From a virus: 53,025 nt of DNA. Below the pieces are notes generated by a model, which was not told the DNA's origin, did no database searches, and saw only the letters and a program-made list of their open reading frames with translations. This document shows, one piece after another, positions 2,773-50,144 of this stretch. The position numbers and the translations under genes are program-made. Position 1 is the first letter of the stretch; every line of letters begins with the position of its first letter. The stretch covers positions 1 to 53,025 of the IMG/VR virus record IMGVR_UViG_3300036389_000008, one strand, 5' to 3'.

Positions 2773-3294
2773 ATGCCAAAACCAACATTAGACATTCTGG
2801 CCTCGCCGATCAAGCCGGAAGAAATCGAATGGCGGGTTCAGAACCAGACCAAAGATGGTCAGAAAGTCGTCGTCGTTCCCTACATCACGAATCGCTGTGT
2901 GATGGAGCGGTTCGACGCTCAGTTCGGCTGGGATGGCTGGGAAAATACCTTCGAGCAGGTGACCGATGGCTTTATCTGCTGCCTCACGATCACTACGGAA
3001 GATGGTCGCCGGGTGACCAAATCCGATGCCGCCAGCCGCACGAATGTCGAACCCGTCAAAGGTGGATGCTCCGATGCGATGAAACGCTGCGCCGTTCAAT
3101 TCGGCCTGGGTCGTGGTCTGTACCGCTATCCGAAAGTGATGATACAGACGACGGATAAATATATACCTGACTGGGCCGAACGGCTGCTCGATGCATTAGT
3201 CGTCAAAATCAATCAGGGTAGTTCAGTCAACGATGTGATAGTACTCAAACCTGAACATGCTAAAAATTTAGCTCCTGTCTCCAAACAATCTTAA
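2773..3294 (+). CDS. Rad52/22-family single-strand annealing protein
   Basis: 173 aa. The diagnostic core is present: the AQFGWDGW-type segment after CVMERFD, then KGGCSDAMKRCAVQFGLGRG and LYRYP, typical of Rad52-type phage annealases. Such proteins bind ssDNA and anneal complementary strands in phage recombination and replication. The length is close to the usual Rad52 DNA-binding domain. A C-terminal extension (about 130-173) may contact other proteins. It lies downstream of the GIY-YIG-like gene. No ssDNA-binding protein or 5'-3' exonuclease is evident next to it. Confidence 0.85.
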   Translation: MPKPTLDILASPIKPEEIEWRVQNQTKDGQKVVVVPYITNRCVMERFDAQFGWDGWENTFEQVTDGFICCLTITTEDGRRVTKSDAASRTNVEPVKGGCSDAMKRCAVQFGLGRGLYRYPKVMIQTTDKYIPDWAERLLDALVVKINQGSSVNDVIVLKPEHAKNLAPVSKQS

Positions 3295-3759: not shown

Positions 3760-4040
3760 CCACTGATGAATTAGATGCCCTCCCGGTCGGTACGACGTTG
3801 TACCTGCCGACCGACTGGGAGGTAGTTGCCTGGACATTCGCTGGCCGGGTCGCTAATCGGAACTGGTACACCCTCCTTTATCCGCCTGATCAGGATGGAA
3901 CCATCAACAACCGCCGACCGCAGTACATCGATGCGGTCCACCTGATGACCGCCCAACTCGATGAGCGCACCGCCTGGCGGGAAGTGGTTGCTGGTTTGGA
4001 TGAACGTAAGGTCTGGATTCATAAACACAAACTGAAGTAA
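3756..4040 (+). CDS. Hypothetical early protein (94 aa)
   Basis: Coupled to both neighbours: the ATGA overlap upstream and TAATG downstream. The product has many aromatics (DWEVVAWTFAGRVANRNWYTLLYP) and a basic C-terminus, with no membrane segment. No family recognised. It lies directly before the methyltransferase-fold gene and may be an accessory of it, but that rests only on position. Confidence 0.5.
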   Translation: MTTDELDALPVGTTLYLPTDWEVVAWTFAGRVANRNWYTLLYPPDQDGTINNRRPQYIDAVHLMTAQLDERTAWREVVAGLDERKVWIHKHKLK

Positions 4041-4891
4041 TGGCACAGTCCCTAACGCCCATGGCGAAGGCCATTCGGAATCTGGCCTACCGGCACGGTA
4101 CTTACAACGTGTTTGCTGATTTCTGCGAAATGGCAGCCTGTTCCTTCTCGAACGCCGTCGATAAGCGCAATTACGAGAAACGGGAAGCGCGCTATATGGC
4201 CATTGTCCAGAAATACAGCAAAGAGGAGGTCAATATCTTCCCGGAACTGCTCGGCATGCTGTCGATGGAACTCGAATACGGTCCGCGTGATGTAATGGGC
4301 GAATTATTCCACGAGTTGGAGCTACACAACGAGCACGCGGGTCAGTACTTCACGCCCTGGCACCTCTGCGAAATGATGGCTCAGCTGACCTACGGCGAGG
4401 ACATTAGCCAGATCGTTGAGCAGAAAGGCTACGTCAGCGCGCAGGAACCAGCCTGCGGATCGGGTGCTTTGATTCTGGGGCTGGCCAGTGCGATGCTGAG
4501 CAAGAAGATCAATTACCAGCAATGCCTGCACGTGTCGGCCATCGACCTCGATAGTCGCTGTGTTCACATGGCCTACCTGCAATTCTCGCTGCTTCACATT
4601 CCGGCAGTTGTCTATTGTGGCAATACGCTCACGCTCGAACTGCACGATGCCTGGTACACACCCGCGCACATTATGGACGGTTGGGACTGGCGACTTGGGC
4701 GCGCCGATCGGCCCGACAATCCGCTGCAGGAGCTATTAGCCGTTGTCGAAAAAGTAGCCCAGCTAACCGAACCGCCTGTGCCGGTAGTAACCGTTCCCGA
4801 ACAAACTGTTCCCGCTCCTGCTGCCGCTGTAAAAGCACCGAAGACGAAAGCCGCTAAACAGGCGGCAATGGGTCAATTAACCTTATTCTGA
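4040..4891 (+). CDS. N6-adenine methyltransferase-fold protein lacking a visible NPPY motif
   Basis: 283 aa. HsdM-like features: GQYFTP (101-106), then the SAM-binding motif I EPACGSG (136-142), an AIDLD strand (167-171) and GNTL (194-197). After GNTL, where active N6-adenine methylases carry (N/D/S)PP(Y/F), the sequence reads ELHDAWYTPAHI, so the catalytic loop appears lost or remodelled. The C-terminus (from about 235) is a low-complexity Pro/Ala/Lys tail. It could be a weakly active methylase, a SAM-binding regulator or an anti-restriction decoy. It ends 24 nt before the PRTRC cassette. Confidence 0.65.
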   Translation: MAQSLTPMAKAIRNLAYRHGTYNVFADFCEMAACSFSNAVDKRNYEKREARYMAIVQKYSKEEVNIFPELLGMLSMELEYGPRDVMGELFHELELHNEHAGQYFTPWHLCEMMAQLTYGEDISQIVEQKGYVSAQEPACGSGALILGLASAMLSKKINYQQCLHVSAIDLDSRCVHMAYLQFSLLHIPAVVYCGNTLTLELHDAWYTPAHIMDGWDWRLGRADRPDNPLQELLAVVEKVAQLTEPPVPVVTVPEQTVPAPAAAVKAPKTKAAKQAAMGQLTLF

Positions 4892-4915: not shown

Positions 4916-5593
4916 ATGAATTTTTTCCAACAACTCGCAGGCCTGGAACTGGTCGGCAATCTGAAATTAACCGTCACCGGATCGGCCGACAAAATGGTCG
5001 TTAGCGTCTTGCTCGACAACGACAAATGCGGGGACGATGCCCGGAAACATATCCCGCCGTTACTGCTGAAAGGCTCAGCCGCCGAAATGGACGGCGAATT
5101 CTTTTCCTCCATCGCTACGCCCCTGCAAAAATCGTCGGGCCTGATGGTCAATATGGAAACCTACCTGAAAGGCCAGGAGGAAGCCAAAAAGAAATCGGCC
5201 ATGGCGAAGGAAGTAGCTGATAAAGAAACCAAAGAAAAGGAGGCTAAGAAAAAACGCTACGATGAGTTCATGAAGAAAGTAGCGGATCTGGAGAAGGATA
5301 AAAAATACAAAGAGGCCATTGCCGCCCTGCCTGACGTGACCACCTATCCCGAACATGCCACAGCCATCGAAGCCCGGAAAAAAGAGCTTTCCAAGCACAC
5401 GACCGTTCAGAAATCCATATTCGACGAATTGCCCCCCGAAACCGGTTTGCCAGACCATCTGGAAGCTGAGCAGAAAGCCAATCAGGAGGAAAACTATTCA
5501 TACGACAGCGCTGAACACCGAGCCAGTGAATTAGGACTGGACGATCAAGAACCAGATTATAATGAAGATCAAAACGAAGAAAACGAAGAATAG
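4916..5593 (+). CDS. PRTRC system protein E-like
   Basis: 225 aa. The N-terminal 80 residues resemble PRTRC E: start MNFFQQLAG, a beta-rich segment, then IPPLLLKGSAAEMDGEFF and a PLQKSSGLMVNMETY stretch. Residues 85-165 form a highly charged coiled coil (Lys/Glu), and the last 40 residues are acidic. The role of PRTRC E is not established; the name comes from its constant neighbourhood with a ParB homologue and a ThiF homologue, usually on plasmids. It heads the cassette, with gene C 3 nt downstream. Confidence 0.7.
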   Translation: MNFFQQLAGLELVGNLKLTVTGSADKMVVSVLLDNDKCGDDARKHIPPLLLKGSAAEMDGEFFSSIATPLQKSSGLMVNMETYLKGQEEAKKKSAMAKEVADKETKEKEAKKKRYDEFMKKVADLEKDKKYKEAIAALPDVTTYPEHATAIEARKKELSKHTTVQKSIFDELPPETGLPDHLEAEQKANQEENYSYDSAEHRASELGLDDQEPDYNEDQNEENEE

Positions 5594-5596
5594 ACC

Positions 5597-5815
5597 ATGT
5601 TACTAGCCACTCAATTACCCCGCACGTTTCAATTTACCAGCAAAGGTCAGACGATTCAACTGACCGACCCTGACCCGCAGATGAGCGACAAAGCGGTGCT
5701 GAATTTCTACGCCGGTACTTACCCGGAACTGACGACTGCCAAGATCACCGGACCGGAAATCAAGAACGACACGCTGGAGTATAAGTTCGAAACCACGATG
5801 GGCACGAAAGGATGA
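5597..5815 (+). CDS. PRTRC system protein C-like (ubiquitin-like)
   Basis: 72 aa. The pattern TFQFTSKGQTIQLTDPDP then FYAGTYPELTTAKITGPE and a final TTMGTKG fits PRTRC C. That family has been classed as a prokaryotic ubiquitin-like beta-grasp fold (Pfam Prok_Ub, from memory). The product is near ubiquitin size and ends in a free glycine (G72), as a conjugatable Ubl would without proteolytic trimming. The stop overlaps the next ATG (ATGA). The E2-like and E1-like genes follow within 2 kb. Confidence 0.75.
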   Translation: MLLATQLPRTFQFTSKGQTIQLTDPDPQMSDKAVLNFYAGTYPELTTAKITGPEIKNDTLEYKFETTMGTKG

Positions 5816-5988
5816 GCCAGACACGCTTACGCTCCATTCGCTTAACCAGTACTGACAAAAAACAATGGAAACTCGCTCAGTCAATCGGCGACTTCGGTCA
5901 CAATCTCAACCGTCTACCCGACGCGGCCAGCGTTCGCAACAATCCGCTGCGCTCGGTGCCGCTGACCGATCTGCCCATGGTTTTTTAA
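5812..5988 (+). CDS. Small ORF between PRTRC C and F; possible N-terminus of F
   Basis: 58 aa from ATG 5812, coupled to gene C by ATGA. Composition is natural for a protein (WKLAQSIGDFGHNLNRLPDA). The same DNA read in the F frame gives an Arg/Ser/Gln-rich string, so this frame is probably the coding one. It ends in TAA inside the run of six T at 5981-5986, and the F frame is reached there by a -1 slip. It may be an independent peptide, or the true start of F joined by frameshifting or separated by an indel. Confidence 0.5.
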   Translation: MSQTRLRSIRLTSTDKKQWKLAQSIGDFGHNLNRLPDAASVRNNPLRSVPLTDLPMVF

Positions 5989-7007
5989 GTCATCGGTTTG
6001 CCTATCTGTGTGGTCGTAAAACGCTCACCAATTGGAAGAATCGGGAAAGGGATTTTTATAAGTCCCTTTCCTACCTCTGCGATTACTACGGCTTTCCGGC
6101 CCCGGTCAATGATCAGCCCTACCCGGCTAATATCGCCAGCGAGTTACACCGGGTTCGGGAGCTGCTCTGCGATCAGTCGCGGGAATACACGCTGGAAGTC
6201 GTCGAAGATGACGACGGCGGTATATGCCTGATGGTCGAGCAGGTCGTCGATACGATGCAGGATTTATACTACATACCCGTCCGGCCGCTATGGGATATGA
6301 AAGCCCTAGCGGACCGACCGGCGGCTGATCTGCTGATGTCCGTTTTCGCGTACCTGGTTGAGGTTGTCGGCGTGCCGTTTTACACCAAATACGGCTACGT
6401 TGCCTTTCAGTATGACCAGCTGGTCGATTACTATAAGTACGAATACGAGGATGAGGAAGATACGGAAAGCGTCGCCGAGTGTATTGCTGAGCTGGATGCT
6501 GCTCATAAAAATGGCGCGGTGTTTTACCGGAATCTAACCAGCCATCGTCACCTGCACGCGTTCGGTCGTCGTCTTCGTCGGTTTAAACCCGTTACGCCCC
6601 GAGAACAAGCCATTTGGCTCGTGGCTACCAAACTGTTCGCGCTGTATAAGGACTATCCGACCCGAAGGCTTGAGGATACCATCAACGAGCAGGTATTTAT
6701 TACCGACGACGGGGAAGTTGACAGCGATTATGAAGCATCCGAGCGGATTTCAGTCGATATGTACGTTTCGTTTATCTGGGACTTCGACTACATCCATGAT
6801 CAGATCGTCGAAACCTTCAATCAGTGCGAATACGCGAACGCGTCAGGTGTCGATGAGCCGCGGACCGTTATTTTTTTCGATCAGCCGCACCCGAAACCAA
6901 CGCATGATCTGACGTTTGATCGTGCTCTGTTTACGCTCATTGACGAATTAATTGCCGCCATGGCACCGCCAAAAGCCCATGAAAACAATAACCAAGCAGT
7001 TTCTTGA
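5865..7007 (+). CDS. PRTRC system protein F-like, acidic
   Basis: 380 aa if read from ATG 5865, but residues 1-40 overlap the 5812 ORF in another frame and look non-coding. Convincing sequence starts near residue 41 (LSHRFAYLCGRKTLTNW). The protein is helical, rich in Tyr and Asp/Glu, with an acidic patch (YEYEDEEDTESV) around residues 190-205. The assignment to F rests mainly on lying between C and B; the sequence match is uncertain. It overlaps gene B by 29 nt. The role in PRTRC is unknown. Confidence 0.5.
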   Translation: METRSVNRRLRSQSQPSTRRGQRSQQSAALGAADRSAHGFLSHRFAYLCGRKTLTNWKNRERDFYKSLSYLCDYYGFPAPVNDQPYPANIASELHRVRELLCDQSREYTLEVVEDDDGGICLMVEQVVDTMQDLYYIPVRPLWDMKALADRPAADLLMSVFAYLVEVVGVPFYTKYGYVAFQYDQLVDYYKYEYEDEEDTESVAECIAELDAAHKNGAVFYRNLTSHRHLHAFGRRLRRFKPVTPREQAIWLVATKLFALYKDYPTRRLEDTINEQVFITDDGEVDSDYEASERISVDMYVSFIWDFDYIHDQIVETFNQCEYANASGVDEPRTVIFFDQPHPKPTHDLTFDRALFTLIDELIAAMAPPKAHENNNQAVS

Positions 7008-7707
7008 TCTCTACAAGCCGAAACAGGCCTTGCTGATTTATCAGCACATGATGGAGTCGCCGATATGGGCAGGTGTGCCAAAATTTTACGTCGAATCCTA
7101 CGACATTGGGCCCGATGGTCGGCCGATCAACGCGCACCCGCTCACGGAAGCCGAAGCCGTCGAACTCTCAAAGTCGCTGTATGACGCCTACACCGAGAAA
7201 ACGGCGTTTCTGTGCCCTAAAGGACTGTTGCCCCGAAACGTGTTATACATCAATCCGTCGCCGGAAAACGGGTACGCGGTCTGGTATACGCCCATGCGGA
7301 AACGGCTGCTTTATTTCACGGATAATCTTTCGATTCCCAACGGAGCCGGTTACGTACCAGCCCTGGTCTGGAAAGCAACGAAAAAGAGCCTGACGCTGTT
7401 TGCGCTGCCCAGCAACCGCAAGCCGGGCGCTGACACCCCCTTGTACTACGCTCCTTTTTTTAACACGGCTGAGTCGGTATGTATGGGTACGGTGGAGGTC
7501 AGGATACCGAAAGGTATTTCACTCGAATCCTTTATGCAGGCCTGGGAGGACTATTTCTTCAATAGCTACTTCTCCCATACCCTGGGCACGGGTAATGTCG
7601 AAGGCAACATCGTGCAGCTATGGCAAAGCCAGATTGAAACGGGTGCAAAATTTCCGGTGAATGCACTCAAAAAAAGCGCGTCTACTTTAAAACATCTCAT
7701 CAAATGA
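6979..7707 (+). CDS. PRTRC system protein B-like (E2-like fold)
   Basis: 242 aa from ATG 6979; an upstream ATG at 6952 adds nine unlikely residues. The segment YVPALVWKATKKSLTLFAL, then ADTPLYYAPFFNT and SVCMGTVEV is the core of PRTRC B, a family related to E2 ubiquitin-conjugating enzymes (Prok-E2_D, from memory). C168 sits where the E2-like catalytic cysteine is expected, shortly after the APFFN motif. The stop overlaps the ThiF ATG by 4 nt (ATGA), as expected for partners made together. Confidence 0.75.
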   Translation: MKTITKQFLDLYKPKQALLIYQHMMESPIWAGVPKFYVESYDIGPDGRPINAHPLTEAEAVELSKSLYDAYTEKTAFLCPKGLLPRNVLYINPSPENGYAVWYTPMRKRLLYFTDNLSIPNGAGYVPALVWKATKKSLTLFALPSNRKPGADTPLYYAPFFNTAESVCMGTVEVRIPKGISLESFMQAWEDYFFNSYFSHTLGTGNVEGNIVQLWQSQIETGAKFPVNALKKSASTLKHLIK

Positions 7708-8486
7708 CACCGATCCACTATACCGCCAATTACCTACTGAACCCGACCAATCCGGTCTCTGTCGTGCTGATCGGCGCGGGTGGCACCGGCTCCCAGGTCT
7801 TGACGACGCTGGCCCGAATGAGCCACGCGCTGATTCAGTTAGGCCATCCGGGCTTTCACGTATCGGTTTGGGATGACGACGAAGTGAGCCGGGCGAATCT
7901 GGGTCGTCAGTTGTTTGCTGAATCAGAGCTTGGTTTTAACAAAGCGGTCGTGCTGATCAACCGCATCAACCGCTTTTTCGGCACCAACTGGAAAGCGTTT
8001 CCCAAACGGTTCGATGCGAAAACAGGCGCGAAGCATTCGGCCAATCTGTTTATTACCTGCGTCGATACGGTAGCGGCCCGGGTGGAGGTAGCTGCTTCCA
8101 TCCGGAAGATGCGAAAAGCGAAACAGAACGACCGGGATATGCCCTACTACTGGCTCGATTTCGGCAATAGTCGCTACACGGGTCAGGTTATGCTGGCAAC
8201 CGTTGACGCTATTAAACAACCGGAATCGAAGCAGTACAACCCGGTTGCTCAGCTGCCGTTCATTACCGACGAGTTTGCCGACGTGCTGCAACAGTCCGAA
8301 GCTGACGACAATACGCCTAGCTGCTCACTGGCCGAGGCCTTGACGCGTCAGGATTTATTCATCAATTCCACGCTGGCCACGATGGGATCGGCTCTACTCT
8401 GGAGCCTGTTCCGCAACGGCATGACCGAAAACCGGGGCTTCTTTCTCAACCTTCAAGATTTCCGGTCGCAACCGGTACGCGTATGA
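7704..8486 (+). CDS. PRTRC ThiF-family protein (E1-like adenylating enzyme)
   Basis: 260 aa. Rossmann nucleotide-binding loop IGAGGTGSQ (23-31), then VWDDDEVSRANLGRQLF with D57-D59 and R68, matching the ATP/Mg-binding features of ThiF/MoeB/E1 enzymes. FITCVDTVAARV is the conserved crossover strand. A TPSCSLAEA segment follows late in the protein. E1-like enzymes adenylate the C-terminal glycine of a ubiquitin-like partner, here presumably the 72-aa gene C product, and pass it to an E2 (gene B). Compact E1 forms of this kind lack the extra domains of eukaryotic E1. Confidence 0.85.
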   Translation: MTPIHYTANYLLNPTNPVSVVLIGAGGTGSQVLTTLARMSHALIQLGHPGFHVSVWDDDEVSRANLGRQLFAESELGFNKAVVLINRINRFFGTNWKAFPKRFDAKTGAKHSANLFITCVDTVAARVEVAASIRKMRKAKQNDRDMPYYWLDFGNSRYTGQVMLATVDAIKQPESKQYNPVAQLPFITDEFADVLQQSEADDNTPSCSLAEALTRQDLFINSTLATMGSALLWSLFRNGMTENRGFFLNLQDFRSQPVRV

Positions 8487-8665
8487 TAACTAAACCTGAG
8501 AAAATGAACGCTGAAACATGGCGTCAGATTTGTTCGGCGGCTAAGGCTTACGCCAAACCACACCGCCATGCTTACCGCTATAACGCTGTACTAGATGCTT
8601 ACAAAGCCGGTGCAGTGAATCAGTGGCTAACCATAGTAGCAATCATTGATGAATTAGACCTATGA
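8483..8665 (+). CDS. Small 60-aa protein after ThiF
   Basis: Overlaps the ThiF stop and the next ATG by 4 nt each, so it belongs to the same translationally coupled run. The product is mostly helical with several His, Tyr and Lys residues. The start could also be Met8. No family recognised and no membrane segment. Confidence 0.5.
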   Translation: MITKPEKMNAETWRQICSAAKAYAKPHRHAYRYNAVLDAYKAGAVNQWLTIVAIIDELDL

Positions 8666-9306
8666 TTCAGCCTTTTCCGCTTGACTGGCCTGCGGGCCAT
8701 CGACGATCGGGACCGCTTGAACAGGAACGCTCGTCAGTCAAATCGCCAATCGCTACCCTGTACCGGTCGATTCATACCGAACTCAAAGCCTGGAAAGCGA
8801 CCGGCGTGATCATCTCGTCGAATGCCGTTCTGAAAAAGGACGGTACACCTGCGGCCCGGCAAACCAAGCCGGCCGATACGGGAGCCGTCGTGTATTTCTG
8901 GTACCGTAATGTTTTTTACGGTCTGAGCCTTGATCACTTCACGGATTTGCCGGGCAATCTGAAGGAAATCCGGGATATTTTGAACCGGTTTCGTCGCTTC
9001 TGGCGGCTGTATAACTACGGGGTAATGCTGAAAATGCTGGCTGAAATCGCAACAGTTAAACAGCCACAGCAGCAAGAAAGACAGCAGCAGAAGCAGGAAC
9101 CACCCCCGAAACAAAAAACGGAGCGTTCGGCTGAGGATTGGCGAACCGTGCTCGAATTAGGTAAAGTCGTCACGTGGTCGCAGGTACGGGCTAATTATTT
9201 AAGACTCTCCAAAAAATACCATCCGGATAAAGGCGGTAAAACGGAAGACTTCCAACGATTACAGGCCGCTTACGAAAAAGGGAAAAAGCATTTCAATTTT
9301 AAATAA
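8662..9306 (+). CDS. J-domain protein at the end of the PRTRC operon
   Basis: 214 aa. Residues about 158-210 form a DnaJ-type J domain with the HPD signature at H187-D189 (SKKYHPDKGG), which would stimulate a host Hsp70 (DnaK). The N-terminal 130 residues are a separate domain of unknown fold (TGAVVYFWYRNVFYGLSLDHF), joined by a Gln/Lys/Pro-rich linker at about 133-155. J proteins often remodel replication or partition complexes. Coupling to ThiF suggests it serves the conjugation cassette or phage replication. Nothing shows the client. Confidence 0.75.
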   Translation: MIQPFPLDWPAGHRRSGPLEQERSSVKSPIATLYRSIHTELKAWKATGVIISSNAVLKKDGTPAARQTKPADTGAVVYFWYRNVFYGLSLDHFTDLPGNLKEIRDILNRFRRFWRLYNYGVMLKMLAEIATVKQPQQQERQQQKQEPPPKQKTERSAEDWRTVLELGKVVTWSQVRANYLRLSKKYHPDKGGKTEDFQRLQAAYEKGKKHFNFK

Positions 9307-9558: not shown

Positions 9559-9942
9559 ATGAGCTTATTGAATTTCACAACTGATCAACTAAAACAAGAA
9601 TTAAACCGTAGGTCAGCCGCTGGCGTGAGCAATGCCGGAATTGATGGCCAGCCTACATTTGACCAACTACCTGCTTACGTGGCTGAGTTAGGTCAAAAAG
9701 TAGAATACTTAATCAAAATCATAGGGCAAGGTGCTGGTAACTCGGATCGCTGGTTAAGCATAGAAGAACTACAAGACTATTTACCGGGCAGGCCATCTAT
9801 AACTACGCTTTATGGAAAGGTTCAACGAAATGAAATTCCTTTTCACAAAATGGGGAAAAGACTCATATTTAGACAATCAGAGATAGAAACGTGGTTACTC
9901 ACTTTAAAATCCGATAAGAGTAAAGTTGATAGCCAAGAGTAA
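9559..9942 (+). CDS. Excisionase-like helix-turn-helix protein
   Basis: 127 aa. Residues 64-113 form an excisionase/MerR-like wHTH (HTH_17 type): WLSIEELQDYL, then TTLYGKVQRNEIPFHKMGKR and FRQSEIETWL. The N-terminal 55 residues are helical and probably mediate oligomerisation. Such proteins bend DNA as recombination directionality factors or act as regulators. The gene follows paired operator dyads and is closed by its own terminator, so it is an independent unit, which fits a regulator that controls itself. Confidence 0.65.
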   Translation: MSLLNFTTDQLKQELNRRSAAGVSNAGIDGQPTFDQLPAYVAELGQKVEYLIKIIGQGAGNSDRWLSIEELQDYLPGRPSITTLYGKVQRNEIPFHKMGKRLIFRQSEIETWLLTLKSDKSKVDSQE

Positions 9943-10070: not shown

Positions 10071-11138
10071 ATGCAGACAGTTCTTCTGCCTATTGACCTG
10101 CTCTCAGTCAATTCGGGGCAGGTTGCAGGCTTGCCTAAAAATCCGCGCTTCATCAAAGACGAGCGATTTCGTCAACTCATTCAATCCATCCGCGATGATC
10201 CCGAAATGTTATCGTTACGGGAATGTTTAGTATTTCCTCATCATGACCGGTACGTTGTCATTGCGGGCAATATGCGCCTGCGTGCGCTGATGGAACTTGG
10301 TTATGCTGAGGTTCCCTGTAAAGTGCTATCCCCGGAAACACCACCTGAAAAACTCCGAGCTATTACGATCAAAGACAATCTAAGTTTTGGGGGTGATGAC
10401 CTGGAAGCACTCGCAGCGGAATGGGATAAAGGTTTGTTGACAGAATGGGGGATGGAGTCCCACGAGTGGACGCCCGAAGTTGGCAAGCTGATCGATCTGG
10501 AAAAGGTAGCCGTTGCCGAGTTGAAGCCGCACCCACAGAATTATAAAGTTCATCCTGACGATCAGCTCCAACACATTGCCCGCAGCATCCGTGATCACGG
10601 CCTGTTCCGCAACGTCGTCATCTCTGCCGATGGCTTTATCATCGCTGGTCACGCGCTGGTTCTCGCCGTCGAACAGATGGGCATGCGATTCCTGCCTGTT
10701 GTTCGGCTCGATGTTACCCATGATTCGCCCATGGCCTTAAAACTGCTCGTGGCTGATAATGAAATCAGTCATCTGGCTGAAATCAATGATCGTAAACTTT
10801 CCGAAGTGTTACGCGACGTGAACATGGCCGATTCTCTACAGGGAACGGGCTATGACGAAATGATGCTGGCAAATCTGCTCATCGTTACCCGAAGCCGGGA
10901 CGAGATCAAGGATTTTAATGCCGCGGCCGAGTGGGTGGGTATGCCGGAATATGAACCAGCGACAAAGCCTGAATTTAAGCTGATCGTTCATTTCGCTACG
11001 GAACAGGACCGGTTTGCCTTTGAGCAACAGTATAAGGTTCCCATCATGACCAAAGGCACCAAGACCTGGACCACACAGCATCCGTTCCCCGGTCGACACG
11101 ATCTATCATCCTTAAAAATCGAATCCGGTGGAAACTAA
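10071..11138 (+). CDS. Protein with two ParB N-terminal-like domains
   Basis: 355 aa. Two ParB/Srx-fold domains: the first spans about residues 5-90 (RFRQLIQSIRDDPEML, then VIAGNMRLRALMELG), the second about 150-235 (LQHIARSIRDHGLFRNVVI, then IIAGHALVLAVEQMG). The first keeps the G-x-x-R-type box; in the second, GHALVLA replaces it, so that copy may be degenerate. No HTH is evident, so plasmid-type partition is unlikely. In phages such proteins often neighbour base-modification and terminase genes; here the glycosyltransferase gene overlaps by 11 nt. Possibly CTP-dependent, but unproven. Confidence 0.75.
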   Translation: MQTVLLPIDLLSVNSGQVAGLPKNPRFIKDERFRQLIQSIRDDPEMLSLRECLVFPHHDRYVVIAGNMRLRALMELGYAEVPCKVLSPETPPEKLRAITIKDNLSFGGDDLEALAAEWDKGLLTEWGMESHEWTPEVGKLIDLEKVAVAELKPHPQNYKVHPDDQLQHIARSIRDHGLFRNVVISADGFIIAGHALVLAVEQMGMRFLPVVRLDVTHDSPMALKLLVADNEISHLAEINDRKLSEVLRDVNMADSLQGTGYDEMMLANLLIVTRSRDEIKDFNAAAEWVGMPEYEPATKPEFKLIVHFATEQDRFAFEQQYKVPIMTKGTKTWTTQHPFPGRHDLSSLKIESGGN

Positions 11139-12018
11139 ATATCCGGTTTACGTGCCCTCCAAAGGTCGTTTCGAGAATTGTTACACCGCCAAATTTCTGC
11201 TGGCTGATCAAACGCCGTTCTGGTTAGTCGTCGAACCATCGGAATATGAGGAATACGCGTCGCGCTTTCCCAAAGACATCATCATCGTCACGCCGAAGGA
11301 TAACATGACGCTACTCGGTGTACGAAACTGGATTCATGATCGCAGTAAAGCCGCTGGCGATAAACGGCACTGGCAGCTCGACGATAATATCATGCGGACG
11401 CGCCGGCTCTTTAAGGGAAAACGTATTCCGTGCAACTCGGCCATTGCCCTTCGGATGTGTGAGGAGTTCACCGATCGTTATACCAACATTGGGCTATCCG
11501 GCTTGAACTACACCATGTTCGCCCTCAACACGACGCCCGTTCCTTACTTTCTGAACGTGCACGTGTATTCGTGCTCGCTGATCAACAACGAAATGCCGTA
11601 CCGTCATCGCCTGATCTACAACGACGATACGGATCTGTGTTTGCAGATTCTCGCGGGCGGCCACTGTACCGTTCTCTTCAACGCGTTCATGGTTGACAAA
11701 ATCCGGACGATGGTCGTCAAAGGTGGCAACACAACGGCGTTGTACCAGGGCGACGGTCGGCTGAAGATGGCGCGCAGCCTGGAACGGGTTTGGCCTGGCG
11801 TTGTTACGACCGATCGACGCTTTCAGCGGCCGCAACACGTGGTGAAAGATAGCTGGAAACATTTCGACACCCAGTTGATTCGAAGGACCGACATCGACTG
11901 GTCAGCTCTGGAAAATACGACCAACGAGTTCGGTATGCAGCTCGTCGTCGTCAATCCGGAATTGAAGAGCGAAGAACTAAAAAAACTGGTCGATCAACAA
12001 CAAATAATAAGAGAATAA
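11128..12018 (+). CDS. TET-associated-type (TAGT/GREB-like) glycosyltransferase
   Basis: 296 aa starting at GTG 11128 inside the ParB gene's end. Features of the TAGT group, from memory: YVPSKGR near the N-terminus (residues 8-14), the sugar-nucleotide/metal motif LDDN (D85, D86) and NDDTDLCLQIL (D166-D169). These enzymes are thought to put sugars on modified bases such as 5-hydroxymethylpyrimidines in phage DNA. No TET/JBP oxygenase or hydroxymethylase is seen in the window, so the acceptor is unknown. The terminase small-subunit gene starts 9 nt later. Confidence 0.65.
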   Translation: METKYPVYVPSKGRFENCYTAKFLLADQTPFWLVVEPSEYEEYASRFPKDIIIVTPKDNMTLLGVRNWIHDRSKAAGDKRHWQLDDNIMRTRRLFKGKRIPCNSAIALRMCEEFTDRYTNIGLSGLNYTMFALNTTPVPYFLNVHVYSCSLINNEMPYRHRLIYNDDTDLCLQILAGGHCTVLFNAFMVDKIRTMVVKGGNTTALYQGDGRLKMARSLERVWPGVVTTDRRFQRPQHVVKDSWKHFDTQLIRRTDIDWSALENTTNEFGMQLVVVNPELKSEELKKLVDQQQIIRE

Positions 12019-12026
12019 TAAGAGAA

Positions 12027-12428
12027 ATGAATGACCAGAACCTAAAACCGGTCCAACCCGGTGAGGTGCGAAACCCGAAAGGTAGGCCCACTGGTGCCCG
12101 CAATCGAAAGACGCTGGCAAAATGGATAATGACCCTGGCTGCTGATGAGGTTTTACCCGAATCAATTTTGGTAATCATGCGCGCAAAGTATCCGAATCTT
12201 AAAGACATGTCCGTCGAAGAGATCATGCTTTTGGCGCAAGTTGCCAAGTCGATTGATAAGCGGGATACGTTTGCTTTTAATGCGGTAATGGATACTGCCT
12301 ACGGCCGTCCATCGCAGGCGCTTGAAGTATCTGGTGAAGGTGGGGGCCCAATACAGGTAATTGCCTACATACCAGAATTTGATCCATTACCCGAACACGA
12401 AGAGGAAAATGACAGTCCAACGGATTAG
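12027..12428 (+). CDS. terS: Terminase small subunit candidate (DUF5681-like)
   Basis: 133 aa. The N-terminus PGEVRNPKGRPTGARNRKT is the DUF5681 signature, often found next to the terminase large subunit in phages. A central helical region (about 35-100) could be the DNA-binding/oligomerisation core, and the C-terminus is acidic. The end overlaps the large-subunit start by 20 nt. The assignment as TerS relies on that position. Confidence 0.7.
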   Translation: MNDQNLKPVQPGEVRNPKGRPTGARNRKTLAKWIMTLAADEVLPESILVIMRAKYPNLKDMSVEEIMLLAQVAKSIDKRDTFAFNAVMDTAYGRPSQALEVSGEGGGPIQVIAYIPEFDPLPEHEEENDSPTD

Positions 12429-15017: not shown

Positions 15018-16890
15018 TCCAATAGTTAAAAAAGCGGACAAAAAAGGACTTCAGCAGGCAAAATTTGAGGACCAACGACACCGCTTGCACGCCGAGGCTG
15101 CCACTAGTGCGGCCTCGGCTTCGCCGTATTGGAAGAAATTCGTTGACGAGTTCATCAAAAAGACGGTAGTAGCGCCTGCCACCCAGGAACAGCTACTGCG
15201 TCAGATCGTCTTTCCGCTCGTATCGGTTGAAGTCGTCGACGAAATCATCGATGCGTCTTCAGCGGTGCATTATGCCCAGGATCGGAGCATTACCATCCGC
15301 ATGTCGGATGAAAAGTTACAGGCCAGTGCTGAACAGTATCTGGAAGAAATCGACCTGGCTAACTTTATTGCCCGAAACTGTCATAATGCACTGTTTTCGG
15401 CCCCTAACTCCTTAGTCATCGTTGATGCCCCAGCCGAACAAACTACCCCTTTCCCGGAACCGTACATCTATCTGGTCGCCAGCGACAAGGTAGAAAGCGC
15501 TGAATCTCTGGATTCACTCCGTGGGCCTGCCGATGCTGGTCTGCTGAACTTCGCGTTTTTCAAAACCGATAAGGATAAGCAGTTCGCGCTGTTCGATGGT
15601 GAAAATATTGGCATCTACACACGTGGTGTCAACGGGGAATGGGCTGAGGTGTTTAAGCCTGTTGCGCATAACCTGCCGTTCAATCCCGCCTGGAAAATGT
15701 GGGCCGATGTGGAGGACAATAACCCACTGGTGTCTAATTCGATGATTCGGCCGCAACTCGGTTCGTTTGATCGCTATGTGTTCTGGGACGGCGCTAAGGA
15801 AACAAACGATTTGTCGGCGGCTTTCCAGACCTTCTGGCATTTCAAAGGCAAAGATTGTGAGTACATCACCGAGGACAAGTTCAAATGTCAGAAGGGTATT
15901 ATTGAACGGCCAAATCCCAATCCCGGCCCGGGTGCTTTACCGATTCGTTCGGCCTGTCCGATTCGAGACCAGTGCGCAGCTCGTCAGGTAGGTGGCATTG
16001 GTGGACGGTTACCGATTCCGGTACCGACGACAAAAGATGGATTCGATATGCGGGAACCGGCTGGCTGGATCAAGGCCGCTGTCGATAACCTGAAATACGT
16101 TGAGGAAAAGGTCGAAAAGCTGAAAGCTAAACTGATCAAGTCAGCCACTGGCTACGAAGCTGGTCCTTCCAACAAACAAGCGCTGAATGAAGATCAGATC
16201 ATGGCCATTCTGGAGAAATCCCGGCAGGTTGGTCAGTACCTCGCTCAGCATTTTCAAACGCTTCACAAACGAGCCATCGACGCCATTCTCGGCATGCGCT
16301 ATGGTTCGTCTTATCTGGGTTGCAACGTCAACTACGGCCGTCGCTTTAATCTGCTGACCGGTGATCAGTTGATGGTTCTTTATGCATCAGCGAAAGAAGG
16401 TGGTCTCACCTGGCTGATGGAGGAAATTGAAGCCATGCTTCAAGATTACTACGCGCGTGCCGATCCGAATCGGCTGTTACGGTACCGCCTTATCGCGGAC
16501 CTCAACCCGTATCCGTTTATGGCCACGTCTGATCTGATTGAAGCAGACATTCACATTACCGATCAGCCAGGCTTCATGTTGTCAATCGCTCTACTTCGCT
16601 GGGTGCGTCAGTTCGAATGGGAAGAAAATGTTCCCATCGAGCGGTTCGGCATCACCATGGATTATGCAAAACGAGTACCCGAAATTTCAAAATCGCTTAG
16701 ACAGTATGTCAAAGACGCAAACTTCAAACCAATCGCCACCAGCGACGCCACCGGCAACGAATCAGGAGGCAACACCGAATCAAAATCAGGGGGAAAATCC
16801 GGTAGTTCATCAGGACGGACCGATTCAGGACGAAAGTCAGGAAACCGTACTGGAGGGAGTTCAGCCAAGCGAAAATCAGCCGACGCCTGA
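14998..16890 (+). CDS. Portal protein candidate with cysteine cluster
   Basis: 630 aa. Its position after TerL and before scaffold and capsid genes, its size, and its long helical region (WIKAAVDNLKYVEEKVEKL, about 358-376) fit a portal (DUF935/SPP1-like style), which forms the DNA channel at one capsid vertex. An insertion at 287-326 has four cysteines, C287-x9-C297-x22-C320-x5-C326, possibly a zinc site. The last 61 residues are Ser/Gly/Lys-rich and overlap the next gene; their Ser TCA and Gly GGA codons are unlike the rest, so that tail is probably overprinted. Confidence 0.7.
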   Translation: MPLNPNDPIVKKADKKGLQQAKFEDQRHRLHAEAATSAASASPYWKKFVDEFIKKTVVAPATQEQLLRQIVFPLVSVEVVDEIIDASSAVHYAQDRSITIRMSDEKLQASAEQYLEEIDLANFIARNCHNALFSAPNSLVIVDAPAEQTTPFPEPYIYLVASDKVESAESLDSLRGPADAGLLNFAFFKTDKDKQFALFDGENIGIYTRGVNGEWAEVFKPVAHNLPFNPAWKMWADVEDNNPLVSNSMIRPQLGSFDRYVFWDGAKETNDLSAAFQTFWHFKGKDCEYITEDKFKCQKGIIERPNPNPGPGALPIRSACPIRDQCAARQVGGIGGRLPIPVPTTKDGFDMREPAGWIKAAVDNLKYVEEKVEKLKAKLIKSATGYEAGPSNKQALNEDQIMAILEKSRQVGQYLAQHFQTLHKRAIDAILGMRYGSSYLGCNVNYGRRFNLLTGDQLMVLYASAKEGGLTWLMEEIEAMLQDYYARADPNRLLRYRLIADLNPYPFMATSDLIEADIHITDQPGFMLSIALLRWVRQFEWEENVPIERFGITMDYAKRVPEISKSLRQYVKDANFKPIATSDATGNESGGNTESKSGGKSGSSSGRTDSGRKSGNRTGGSSAKRKSADA

Positions 16891-17338
16891 GCCTAAAACC
16901 GTTATGATGACCCAGGATCAACTAGATCAACTGCTAGAAAGAACGCTGGCTAAAGGGCTGGAGATTGGAAAACAATCCGTGGCAACGTCTACGGACACCG
17001 TTACGCAGGCGACTGAAGGACCAGCGGCTGAGGCAACGCCGGTACAAGTTGATGACAGTGGGGCCATTTACGGCAATCTGGACAAAACGAAGGAATTTGA
17101 CCTGGCTAAGTTGATTCCGGGCCTGAAAGAGTTTCCGAAAGATAAAATCGTCATTGTCCTGCAGCAGTATTCAACGGACAAAGCCGGCGACGTAACCGAA
17201 ACCAAGAAACTCCGTAAAGCGCAGTTTATCGACATCGCCGATTTTATCGCTAATACCAAAAAAGACCCGGATACGGGCGATACGCTCTGGGACGTGATGC
17301 AGATCCGTTACACCGTCGTCAACGATCCCCGCAAATAA
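16706..17338 (+). CDS. Hypothetical head protein; N-terminus overlaps portal
   Basis: 210 aa from ATG 16706, overlapping the portal by 185 nt in another frame. ATG 16904, 13 nt after the portal stop, is an alternative that gives 144 aa. The overlapping part is Pro/Gln/Asn-rich (residues 1-64) and uses codons typical of the genome (CAG, CCG, ACG, GAA), supporting translation. After MMTQDQLDQLLERTLAKGL (67-85), a folded C-terminal domain follows (KEFDLAKLIPGLKEFPKDK). Could be a scaffold or capsid accessory. Confidence 0.55.
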   Translation: MSKTQTSNQSPPATPPATNQEATPNQNQGENPVVHQDGPIQDESQETVLEGVQPSENQPTPEPKTVMMTQDQLDQLLERTLAKGLEIGKQSVATSTDTVTQATEGPAAEATPVQVDDSGAIYGNLDKTKEFDLAKLIPGLKEFPKDKIVIVLQQYSTDKAGDVTETKKLRKAQFIDIADFIANTKKDPDTGDTLWDVMQIRYTVVNDPRK

Positions 17339-46890: not shown

Positions 46891-47175
46891 TTATTTCTCG
46901 TACCGATTATTCTTCCGATACTCTAACTCTTCATTCAAAAGCTGATCAATCCGACGAACCGGAAAAATGGGTTGAACTGGCTTTAACGAACGCTCCAGTT
47001 TCTTAACCCGGTCCAACAGATCCACATACTGTTTTAGTGTTAAGAGCACTAGTGAATCGTCACTCGTAACCAGTACCGGCGTAGGCTTAATGGCCTTACT
47101 GATCGAATCGGCTGGCGTTTGTGCCAGTGCGGGGCTGGCCAGCAGCAGCAGGAGAATAAGTTGAATCAGTTTCAT
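46891..47175 (-). CDS. Exported 94-aa protein with coiled coil
   Basis: Signal peptide to about residue 18 (LIQLILLLLLASPALA|QT). The mature protein has a coiled coil (YVDLLDRVKKLERSL, about 50-64) and a charged C-terminal helix. It overlaps the ASCH gene by 4 nt. It might be a second, divergently placed lysis or envelope component, or a lysogenic protein. Confidence 0.55.
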   Translation of the reverse strand: MKLIQLILLLLLASPALAQTPADSISKAIKPTPVLVTSDDSLVLLTLKQYVDLLDRVKKLERSLKPVQPIFPVRRIDQLLNEELEYRKNNRYEK

Positions 47176-47624
47176 AGTAAATCGAATATGGACAGTTGCC
47201 CGGTGTACGAATTCACAAGCTCAGTATCGAATTGCCAGAAGCCCTGGCTCCCTTTGGCGGGAATCGGTTTGTCGAACAGGACCGGATCGGTCAGTTTCCA
47301 CGCATAACGATCAGGTGAATAATCGCCGTAATAAAATTCCTTTGGCTTACCCGGTCGGCAGTGTTTCTTCATCCAGGCCTCGGAGGGGATGCAGTCGACG
47401 AGGTTGACCGTACCGAGGATGGAGCCGCACGGCAGTTTAACATCCTTTAGATCTGACGCGAACGGTTCCTGCAGCAGCAGTTCCTTACACCATTTCGGCA
47501 TTTTCTTCGACGCATGAATGCCCAGTTCACCGCGGACTTTCGTTGGCCAATGCCGGGTCTCGAATTTTTTCAGCCCTAACACAACGAGCGTTGCGTAGGG
47601 CTGATAGAGGCTAATAATTCTCAT
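47172..47624 (-). CDS. ASCH-domain protein
   Basis: 150 aa. QPYATLVVLGLKKFETRHWP at the N-terminus, KVRGELGIHASKK, and CGSILGTVNLVDC are ASCH signatures (a PUA-like fold). Known members bind or hydrolyse nucleic acids or modified nucleosides, and some are RNases. The C-terminal half (YAWKLTDPVLFDKPIPAKG) is also typical of the phage/plasmid subgroup. Function here is uncertain; it might act on the phage's own modified base or RNA. It overlaps the RyR-like gene by 4 nt. Confidence 0.75.
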   Translation of the reverse strand: MRIISLYQPYATLVVLGLKKFETRHWPTKVRGELGIHASKKMPKWCKELLLQEPFASDLKDVKLPCGSILGTVNLVDCIPSEAWMKKHCRPGKPKEFYYGDYSPDRYAWKLTDPVLFDKPIPAKGSQGFWQFDTELVNSYTGQLSIFDLL

Positions 47625-47998
47625 TTAAGCGCATCGACGATTGACTGAAACAGCTTATCCTTTTTCTGCTGGAATTCGGGCAATTCCTCAAAAGGCACTA
47701 GGCAGGGGTGCGTTTTCTTCTCCGCATCTTTCACTTTGCCATATTTCCAGCCATTCGCGATCTTATCGGCAGACCAGGCCTCGTGCTGAGCCGACGCCGG
47801 CGCATCTGGATTTTCTAAGCGAAACCGGACGCCAGCAATAGCCGAATCGCGTTGCCATTGCTCGGCTTCGTCCCAGTGTTTTTGTGAAAAATCACCGTCT
47901 GATTGGCACCAAGCTCGGTTCGCTTCGTGGCAGGCCTTGGCGATAAAAATGGTAATCATAGTCAGGTAACCAGGCGAATTTTTAGGGGTTGATTGCAT
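47621..47998 (-). CDS. RyR-domain protein
   Basis: 125 aa, or 112 if it starts at the second Met (47959). ACHEANRAWCQSDGD, then WQRDSAIAGVRFRLENPDAP, AWSADKIANGWKYGKVKDAE and HPCLVPFEELPEFQQ match the bacterial RyR repeat very well. RyR domains are found in ryanodine receptors and in bacterial proteins, where ligand binding is suspected but unclear. Probably a single-domain sensor. The ASCH gene overlaps by 4 nt, so the two may work together. Confidence 0.85.
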   Translation of the reverse strand: MQSTPKNSPGYLTMITIFIAKACHEANRAWCQSDGDFSQKHWDEAEQWQRDSAIAGVRFRLENPDAPASAQHEAWSADKIANGWKYGKVKDAEKKTHPCLVPFEELPEFQQKKDKLFQSIVDALK

Positions 47999-48011
47999 TG
48001 TATGAATTGGT

Positions 48012-48290
48012 TTAATTAGTTGCTTGTGGTTGATACTTGCCGCAGGTAGGCCAGCCGATCAGGTGATCTGTCGTCACGGATGCCGACACACCCCGGTATT
48101 CGCATTTGTAGTACCGTTTGCCATTATGGGCATTGCAGCACAGATGATCGCATGATTTACACTTTGTCCCTTCGGGGCCTTTCCCGTACACCTTCACCAT
48201 CGGGTTACCGTGTTTGGTGCCCGAATGCCAGGCGCTTTTCACTTGTTTTTTAGGTATGTCAGATACCTCTTCGCCGAATAGGTTAGTCAT
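48012..48290 (-). CDS. Cysteine-rich small protein, probable zinc binder
   Basis: 92 aa. CKSCDHLCC (44-52), C63 in YYKCEYRG and C83 in PTCGKY resemble a treble-clef or zinc-ribbon-like cluster seen in small phage proteins. The N-terminus MTNLFGEEVSDIPKK is low complexity. Overlaps the next gene by 8 nt. Could bind nucleic acid; no more can be said. Confidence 0.55.
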   Translation of the reverse strand: MTNLFGEEVSDIPKKQVKSAWHSGTKHGNPMVKVYGKGPEGTKCKSCDHLCCNAHNGKRYYKCEYRGVSASVTTDHLIGWPTCGKYQPQATN

Positions 48291-48516
48291 CGTCTTCGAC
48301 AGTTTTCGTTTTAGTATAATCGGTATAGCCTAATTCCTTCAGGGCTTGAATCCGTAGTTTTCGCTCGGCCCAACTCAGCATCATCGGAAACTTGCTGATC
48401 AAATCCTGATAGTAGATCTGCAGAAACCCGCGCGAATAGTTGCGGTGCAGGAACTGCATTCGGTCCAGCACATCGTGCGAAAGGGACTGTTTCTTAGGCT
48501 TCGTTTTGGTGGCCAT
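48283..48516 (-). CDS. Hypothetical basic protein (77 aa)
   Basis: Basic N-terminus (MATKTKPKKQSLSHDVLD) and helices (RMQFLHRNYSRGFLQIYYQD, AERKLRIQALKEL), acidic at the end. Overlaps the preceding zinc-rich gene's start. May bind DNA by charge. No family recognised. Confidence 0.5.
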   Translation of the reverse strand: MATKTKPKKQSLSHDVLDRMQFLHRNYSRGFLQIYYQDLISKFPMMLSWAERKLRIQALKELGYTDYTKTKTVEDDD

Positions 48517-48541
48517 GATCAGTCATAGTGCGGTATGAGTG

Positions 48542-48574
48542 AAAATTTCCCCGACTCAATGCGGCCGGGGAAAT
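48542..48574 (-). terminator. Terminator after the clamp gene (minus strand)
   Basis: ATTTCCCCG (48545-48553) and CGGGGAAAT (48566-48574) form a nine-pair stem with a 12-nt loop. Read on the minus strand it is followed by TTTT (48542-48545). It separates the DnaN transcript from the downstream small genes. Confidence 0.8.
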
Positions 48575-48601
48575 CCGGATTCAACGGTAAACTAGTTTGG
48601 A

Positions 48602-49735
48602 TTAATCGTTCAGCATAAGCGGCATGATCAGGCTGGTAACCGTCACGTCGTCGTTGGTTTGTTCCTGAATGAAGGCCGCTTTGTAAGGGGATCTAAACGC
48701 GAAACTGATCAGGGCACCATCGACGTGCTGGACTAGTTCCAGCAGCAGTTGACCGTTAAACCCAATCGCCATTTTGTCGTCTTGATAGCTGGCCAGCAGG
48801 GTTTCTTTCGCCCGGCGCTTCATATCGTCGTTATCGGCCGAGAGCGTGAGTTTATTCAGCGCTAAATCCAGTCGTATTTGGGCCGTGTTCTTGGTGGCGA
48901 ACAGCAACAGGGTTTTCAGCCGGCCAATGAAATCCGCTTTGCCGATTTCCAGTTCGTAGGGATTCTGAACAAAGAGTCCGTTCACATCCGGGTACTTGCC
49001 TTCCGCCTGACGGGTGAGCAGTTCATAGGGGCCAATCTCGAACAGGATGGTTTTAGGCGAAACGATGATCAGCACATCGCCGGCTGCTTCTTTCAGCAGT
49101 TTGTTCAGCAGCAAATCAGCCGCTTTGCGGGGTAGCAGCGCTTTGAAGGGGTGCAGGCCGTTATTCGGCCGTTCGACCCGAATAAGCCGGTTGCCATCAC
49201 TGCCGAAAAAGTGAAGTAGGCTGGGGCCGGACTCAATGGCGACGCAACCCATCGCTGGTTTCGAATCATCGGTCGAGGTGGCAAACGCGGTGTGGTATAA
49301 GGCGTGCTGCAACTGCTCGACCGGCAGTGAGACGTCAAACCCACCGTCGTCGGTATTCGTCGGCCAATCGATGGCTTCCGTCAAGGGAAGCTCGTAATTA
49401 CCCGTATCGGTACGGATCAGGAGCTGGCTATCTTCCAGATTGAACAGCAGGGTAATCGGTTGTTCGGGCAGAGAGGCCAGGCAGTCGGTCAGCAATTTGG
49501 CCGGTACGCAGCAGATCAGCTCGTCATTACTGGATTCGACCGGAATGCGGGTCGTTAAAAAATCGATGTTGTCGGAGGCCGTCACGATGAGCGTGTTGCC
49601 TTCGGTTTCCATCCGGAAATGGTCCAGGATCGGTAAAACGGGATTACTTGGAACGGTACTTTTGAGCGTACCGAGGAATCTCGACATGACGCCGGAACTG
49701 ACAATGACTTTGGTGGTTGCTAATTCGGAAACCAT
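48602..49735 (-). CDS. dnaN: Phage-encoded DNA polymerase III beta clamp (DnaN)
   Basis: 377 aa, normal length for a bacterial clamp. Three clamp domains can be traced: LPILDHFRMETEGNTLIVTA in domain I, then ALYHTAFATSTDDSKPAMG in domain II and GFNGQLLLELVQHVDGALIS in domain III, ending LIMPLML like the usual MPMRL. A phage copy could load the host polymerase at the phage origin or titrate host factors. Next to it lies the VRR-NUC gene, and the initiator is upstream in the same operon. Confidence 0.9.
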   Translation of the reverse strand: MVSELATTKVIVSSGVMSRFLGTLKSTVPSNPVLPILDHFRMETEGNTLIVTASDNIDFLTTRIPVESSNDELICCVPAKLLTDCLASLPEQPITLLFNLEDSQLLIRTDTGNYELPLTEAIDWPTNTDDGGFDVSLPVEQLQHALYHTAFATSTDDSKPAMGCVAIESGPSLLHFFGSDGNRLIRVERPNNGLHPFKALLPRKAADLLLNKLLKEAAGDVLIIVSPKTILFEIGPYELLTRQAEGKYPDVNGLFVQNPYELEIGKADFIGRLKTLLLFATKNTAQIRLDLALNKLTLSADNDDMKRRAKETLLASYQDDKMAIGFNGQLLLELVQHVDGALISFAFRSPYKAAFIQEQTNDDVTVTSLIMPLMLND

Positions 49736-49748
49736 GAGTGTTTTACGT

Positions 49749-50144
49749 TTAAGGATGAGATAAATAGGAATGAATACACTGGCGAAATTCTTCGTAGGTT
49801 CTCGGCATGGCGACCTCGAAATCGACGCTTCGCAGGTAAGCGTGAACGATGATTTGATTGTCGGATGGATCGCCGTTAACGGTCTTCATTTCGATAAAAA
49901 GGCCGTGTTTTCCGTTATGGGGGTAGGCCAGAAACAGATCGGGCCAACCGGCAATCATGCCCTCGGCCAGTAGCCGACCGCGCTCGGCTTTGGTCCGTTT
50001 TCCGGCGTTGGGTGTGGCCTGGAGCATCAGCTGCGGGTAGGCCAGTCGAAACCAGCGCACACAACGAGCCTGTAAGCCGTGCTCCTGCTGATCGACGTAT
50101 TTGGCCCGAAACTGGTCGGCCGACATTTCGTTATTTTTTGCCAC
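49749..50144 (-). CDS. VRR-NUC nuclease
   Basis: 131 aa. HGLQARCVRWFRLAYP, PNAGKR, then GWPDLFLAY with D69 and FIEMKT with E85 and K87, plus Q97 in SDNQ: the PD-(D/E)xK core of VRR-NUC enzymes. They cut branched or junction DNA. Its role here could be resolving replication intermediates. Neighbours: DnaN 13 nt downstream, and an overlap of 14 nt with the gene upstream. Confidence 0.8.
   Translation of the reverse strand: MAKNNEMSADQFRAKYVDQQEHGLQARCVRWFRLAYPQLMLQATPNAGKRTKAERGRLLAEGMIAGWPDLFLAYPHNGKHGLFIEMKTVNGDPSDNQIIVHAYLRSVDFEVAMPRTYEEFRQCIHSYLSHP

Follow-up and report, generated by a model that had tools for sequence, protein, structure and literature searches.

The viral DNA analyzed here is a stretch of 53,025 bases from the IMG/VR virus record IMGVR_UViG_3300036389_000008, the whole of which we term the window. 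On one strand, at positions 4916-9306, it carries a PRTRC ubiquitin-like cassette that encodes a ubiquitin-like protein (C), an E1-like enzyme (ThiF) and an E2-like protein (B) with conserved candidate catalytic residues, and in which the JAB protease (protein A) was not found. Judged from sequence, the cassette is very probably a conjugation cascade. The fuller reading, that it is a JAB-less PRTRC ubiquitin-like conjugation module working for the phage within a DNA-handling operon, we regard as evenly poised, and we suggest somewhat more tentatively that the proteins it tags are replication, recombination or DNA-protection proteins.

Identification of the PRTRC cassette

The cassette genes lie on the plus strand in the order E (4916-5593), C (5597-5815, 72 residues), a protein in the F position (5865-7007, 380 residues), B (6979-7707), ThiF (7704-8486), a 60-residue open reading frame (ORF; 8483-8665) and a J-domain protein (8662-9306). 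E stops at 5593 ahead of the C start at 5597, the F-position gene overlaps the start of B at 6979, and there are 4-nt overlaps at the B/ThiF, ThiF/ORF and ORF/J junctions. A 252-nt gap follows J. The preliminary description of this DNA had recognized a coupled run of E, C, an F-like protein, B and ThiF, ending in a J-domain gene. These proteins and their order hold, and the genes do touch or overlap, but the 60-residue ORF between ThiF and J had been missed. Searches of Pfam, NCBIfam and PHROG gave this ORF no noteworthy match, and tblastn found no relative among the cassette loci compared.

As that description had also suggested, the proteins were searched against the PRTRC profiles, and E, C, B and ThiF match far beyond chance. 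ThiF scores 265 bits against TIGR03736 (4e-79; cut-off 145). The proposed ubiquitin-like nature of C is upheld by matches above cut-off to TIGR03738 (3.5e-20, 71.9 bits; cut-off 46) and to PF14454 Prok_Ub (1.6e-25, 89 bits; cut-off 25). E lies just above the TIGR03741 cut-off (9.4e-10, 38.4 against 37.95) and far above that of PF19556 (3.2e-62, 210 against 26). B matches PF14460 Prok-E2_D (1.5e-29, 103 bits; cut-off 25), and its full-length match to TIGR03737 (4.7e-29, 101 bits) is below that model's cut-off of 131. The F-position protein gives no match to PRTRC_F (TIGR03742) at E-values up to 1. The slot itself is consistently filled: in a main survey of 161 loci, comprising 138 without a detected protein A and 23 A-positive loci from phages and plasmids, 160 hold a protein of roughly 300 residues or more at this position, and in 133 of the 161 these proteins join iteratively into one family. 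No PRTRC-type ParB was found, the ParB-like protein of the window (10071-11138) matching other ParB models only. At the level of sequence, the assignment of the window cassette to PRTRC is supported.

Conservation of the proposed ThiF and B active sites

The GAGGTGSQ loop noted earlier in ThiF is intact, and residues G24, G26, G29, D57, N65, R68, K80, D121 and C207 are unvarying in 166 of 166 ThiF proteins. The ThiF profile matches the structures of E1, UBA5, ThiF, MoeB and Cap2, and C207 is probably equivalent to the E1/ThiF cysteine. In B, the candidate catalytic C168 and N162 are unvarying in all 167 proteins and H200 is present in 156; a further cysteine lies at position 79. This invariance spans highly divergent loci from phages, integrative conjugative elements (ICEs) and plasmids.

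B had been described as E2-like with C168 as its candidate catalytic cysteine. The invariant cysteine and the Prok-E2_D profile bear this out, whereas the structural side of the claim is weaker. The AlphaFold2 (AF2) model of B (predicted local distance difference test score, pLDDT, 92.2) gave no significant Foldseek match among solved structures. In a second-look list E2s recur (UBE2L3, Ubc12, Rad6, UBE2L6 and others) with Z-scores of 2.4-4.0 and root mean square deviations of 4.3-5.2 Å over 93-126 of about 150 residues. In the model a helix precedes a beta-meander, after which come the Cys loop and further helices; this order would fit an E2, and an E2 fold for B is likely. The F-position protein diverges fast and is largely helical in its AF2 model (pLDDT 85.9), which has no convincing fold match, and no column is invariant among 58 relatives. 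On these two grounds we rejected an enzymatic role for it and consider an adaptor likelier.

The C-terminus of protein C and the missing protein A

Protein C of the window ends exactly in TTMGTKG followed by the stop codon. In 138 of 138 A-less loci C likewise stops at the end of the domain, with GTKG in 113, a final glycine in 135 and GxKG or GxLG in nearly all. In all 23 A-positive loci of the main survey, C runs 5-100 residues past GTKG or GAKG. A two-way rule equating the presence of JAB with an extended C held at first (161/161) and was then rejected on added plasmid loci: those from Rhizorhabdus, Methylomonas, Aromatoleum and Robbsia encode protein A and a flush C, while those from Rhodoferax, Polaromonas, Manganitrophus and Hydrogenophaga encode protein A and an extended C (two Deinococcus plasmids were not classed for the C tail). 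The rule that holds is one-way: a C extension was seen only beside protein A, which is the direction predicted by a maturation in which JAB trims C.

Neither PRTRC_A (TIGR03735) nor Prok-JAB was detected in the window and its nearest phage relatives (records G000, G001, G002 and G003); the same search detected both in six of six A-positive viral records. Nor is protein A annotated in the Bacteroidota plasmid loci to which NCBI gives the name PRTRC. It is found in the proteobacterial PRTRC type and absent from the surveyed Bacteroidota type. A separate arrangement is seen on a Thiodictyon plasmid (L183, 4505-8070), where the order is E-ThiF-C-(F position)-B and A is not annotated.

Phages as carriers of the cassette

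The window carries integrase, Erf, terminase large subunit (TerL), portal, tape measure, processivity clamp and lysozyme genes. The Erf-like annealing protein (2773-3294) stands at the upstream end of an operon-like run, in which Erf, an N6-adenine DNA methyltransferase-like gene (4040-4891, plus strand; PF02384, 1.4e-6; phrog_5696, 8e-76) directly upstream of E, and the cassette follow one another without interruption. Some 3-5 kb separate the cassette from TerL, which is downstream of it in the window and in records G001 and G003. PRTRC is known chiefly from plasmids, and its placement here between phage recombination and packaging genes, as first described, is confirmed by Erf on one side and TerL on the other. 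Misassembly of a plasmid piece into a phage was rejected, because independent viral records hold the same cassette with TerL downstream; a conjugative coupling protein never rose above cut-off in the 50 viral contigs tested, 22 of which also encode TerL by one model. The cassette-bearing window is thus a genuine phage rather than a plasmid join.

A survey of other phages, proposed in the preliminary description, found cassette relatives on at least 128 viral contigs of IMG/VR, each encoding a ThiF relative. Among GenBank phages the cassette is clear in only two records, Burkholderia phage BgVeeders33, which was isolated from sewage, has a contractile tail and encodes the full cassette, and a faecal contig that is unverified. 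The ThiF reading frame of faecal contig MT839883 (L005) is seemingly split in two. Cassette relatives are also encoded in no fewer than 540 stretches of bacterial genomes, and 374 plasmids match. One Tunicatimonas plasmid (L016) holds a second ubiquitin-like system, a multiubiquitin-domain protein plus ThiF (15450-17259), about 7 kb from its PRTRC genes.

The ThiF tree places the window in a modestly supported group together with G001, G002, Arsenicibacter (whose contig is that of G003) and Spirosoma. Because the phage label shows 10 changes on this tree, at least 5 of them forced by supported branches, the PRTRC module appears to have been present in phages either repeatedly or over a long period.

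Genes adjoining the cassette

Flanking genes were grouped by clustering, with bacterial counts taken from the 80 closest loci, all Bacteroidota. Near the cassette in these loci are genes for a single-stranded DNA-binding protein (SSB; 64/80) and DUF932 (51/80), and about 30 of the 80 have downstream clusters of conjugative-transposon type that include TraM and DUF4138. Viral loci encode DnaB (25 loci), a DEAD-box helicase (13) and a replication initiator (12), and a sliding clamp gene whose end is no more than 100 nt from the E start occurs in 17 distinct viral loci (11 changes on the tree). The clamp directly upstream of E in G002 is 35% identical to the window clamp at 48602-49735. Sliding clamps have no conserved stretch. 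The neighbors point to DNA replication, recombination or establishment over virion assembly, since they consist of SSB, DUF932, sliding clamp, DnaB and helicase genes. PADLOC has models for none of C, E, F, B and J and matches ThiF to generic E1-E2 models only; it otherwise returned a methyltransferase similarity and a marginal mad1 hit. The earlier suggestion that the phage tags virion proteins, or uses the module in a defense-like way, therefore finds no backing in the context.

The methyltransferase upstream of E is 38% identical to the one near PRTRC on plasmid pMOL28 and 60% identical to a family member located elsewhere on viral record G001. The J-domain protein retains HPDK (PF00226, 1.1e-7; phrog_9210, 2.5e-27). 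Relatives of J lie downstream of ThiF in loci L002, L003 and L027, and also in the viral loci L200, L204 and L212, which have more distant cassettes. Only one of the 80 Bacteroidota loci (L027) has a J relative, and among 25 viral J relatives 5 are beside PRTRC and 20 have no cassette nearby. An obligatory place for J in the cassette was rejected on the viral counts and on the L003 protein; J recurs beside the cassette without being one of its defining genes. The L003 protein (11679-12326) belongs to the J family and has no HPD motif, and a chaperone-recruiting role may have been lost in that phage.

Elsewhere in the window, a helix-turn-helix protein (9559-9942) resembles MAD1 of the methylation-associated defense system (NF047737, 49 bits, below the cut-off of 80), and an ordinary excisionase-like regulator is an equally likely identity. 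At 10071-12018 a TET-associated glycosyltransferase (PF20691, 5e-46) comes after a double ParB-like protein, suggesting that the phage DNA is hypermodified. A separate replication block on the minus strand (47172-50144) encodes an ASCH-domain protein, the sliding clamp and a VRR-NUC nuclease.

Proposed mechanism and alternative explanations

We propose that C is made already mature, ending in a reactive glycine, and that ThiF would adenylate this C-terminal glycine, perhaps binding C through C207. C would then be handed from ThiF to Cys168 of B, and B, possibly guided by the E or F protein, would join it to target proteins. The targets would most likely act on incoming or replicating DNA, as phage or host replication, recombination and DNA-protection factors. 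Because no cognate JAB protease was found, the phage itself probably cannot reverse the tag. A more specific version is speculative and improbable: phages, ICEs and plasmids would attach C to a protein of the replication fork, such as the sliding clamp, with no deconjugase of their own for C, and so favor the element's replication or recombination; it would be loosely comparable to the attachment of ubiquitin and SUMO to eukaryotic PCNA.

Several observations weigh against a conjugation module that serves DNA handling. The contrast between protein A and the C extension reflects only three changes of each trait on the tree, and therefore has small statistical weight. The E2 fold of B is backed only by Pfam and by weak structural similarity (Z at most 4). 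The neighborhood argument is one of guilt by association: the window's own clamp does not adjoin the cassette, and the clamps that do share no conserved candidate lysine. We also found no biochemistry for the PRTRC family in the accessible literature.

The methyltransferase and SSB neighbors would also fit another reading, with the module tagging host defense proteins, such as restriction enzymes and nucleases, early after entry. This anti-defense or establishment role is unlikely in our estimate; it would account for one module being common to phages, ICEs and plasmids, all of which enter as foreign DNA. Plasmid leading regions, in which anti-defense genes abound, typically contain methyltransferases and SSBs (PMC11541004), and the cassette has similar neighbors: the N6-adenine methyltransferase directly upstream in the window and near the cassette on pMOL28, and the SSB and DUF932 genes that adjoin it in ICE loci. 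However, PRTRC is unmentioned in the leading-region survey (PMC11541004), and sliding clamps, DnaB and replication initiators are not anti-defense genes.

A prophage-encoded defense, in which structural proteins of competing phages are tagged as by BilABCD, is decidedly improbable. It has a precedent in Bil, an E1/E2/Ubl cascade directed at the assembly of phages (Hor et al. 2024, as cited in PMC12135933 and PMC13373217), and the integrase of the window phage would allow it to persist as a prophage. But the content is not that of Bil, with a single Ubl domain, a single-domain E1 and no JAB found, the PADLOC models do not cover C, E, F, B and J, and the cassette sits in the Erf/methyltransferase run beside replication genes rather than in an immunity region or among defense genes. 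Moreover, deletion of a "Bil-like" system, which may or may not be PRTRC, left hankyphage assembly unchanged in a Bacteroides strain.

Sulfur-carrier chemistry, by which ThiF and C would make a thiocarboxylate in the manner of ThiF/ThiS instead of conjugating proteins, is less probable again. The adenylation residues of this ThiF superfamily E1, its profile matches to the ThiF and MoeB structures, and a C-terminal glycine in C compatible with ThiS-like use would all suit such chemistry; it leaves unexplained why B is always present, with an absolutely invariant cysteine and an E2-family profile, and the common neighbors include no sulfur-transfer gene. That the cassette is a plasmid or ICE module hitch-hiking on phages and not serving them is very improbable: it does occur on plasmids and ICEs, and the ThiF tree has 10 changes of the phage label, but phage copies at 40-66% identity keep the catalytic residues invariant, the cassette sits in many phages at a fixed place directly behind the clamp, it is embedded in the recombination run in the window, and the 5 or more supported carrier changes imply that phages kept or regained it repeatedly.

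PRTRC (operon type 6d) was recognized as a possible ubiquitin-like system some twenty years ago, and we found no reported function for it. The many phage carriers, one of them cultured, the invariant proposed catalytic residues and the replication neighbors make its function testable, and phages allow effects on replication, recombination and host range to be measured directly. The JAB-less form with its pre-matured tag offers a minimal three-protein cascade (C, ThiF and B) for reconstitution.

Comparison with known systems

The window cassette shares the E1-E2-Ubl logic of BilABCD, CBASS Cap2 and Bub, and its ThiF is generically similar to Cap2 and to the PADLOC E1-E2 models. It differs from them in protein families and gene context, with no tandem-Ubl BilA, no fused or two-part E1 and no CD-NTase. 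BilABCD is characterized by a tandem-Ubl BilA, the JAB protein BilC and an E1 with inactive and active adenylation domains (PMC11354881), whereas in the window C is a single 72-residue domain, ThiF a single 260-residue domain and JAB was not found.

Operon type 6d comprises a ubiquitin-like protein with a C-terminal glycine, an E1-like protein, an E2-like protein with a cysteine and a downstream conserved histidine, and a rapidly diverging helical protein (Iyer et al. 2006, PMC1779556), all of which have counterparts in the window. In that description JAB is always fused or encoded adjacently (PMC1779556), so the JAB-less form in the window and its nearest relatives departs from it. The helical protein was suggested there to be an enzyme (PMC1779556), unlike what the 58 F-position proteins, with no invariant column, indicate.

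The pMOL28 PRTRC locus of Cupriavidus metallidurans (ParB-E-C-F-B-A-ThiF) has the same E, C, B and ThiF families in the same order, a filled F slot and, like the window, an N6-adenine methyltransferase nearby. Unlike pMOL28, the window has a phage carrier, a C that ends flush at GTKG, an F protein unrecognizable by profile and an attached J-domain gene, and neither protein A nor a PRTRC-type ParB match was found in it. PRTRC and type 6d are known kinds of system, and we found no report of the phage-borne, JAB-less form that lies within a DNA-recombination run together with a J gene; our search found no phage literature with PRTRC, and subscription-journal papers on Ubl systems, where such a report is possible, lay outside it.

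BgVeeders33, which is cultured, and its IMG/VR relatives resemble the window in being phage-borne, but their order is E-C-F-B-A-ThiF, with protein A present and a C extension of 60-100 residues. The Bacteroidota ICE loci adjoin SSB, DUF932 and conjugation-type genes rather than phage genes, and have the same A-less layout as the window (E-C-F-B-ThiF), a flush C and a ThiF up to 65% identical to that of the window.

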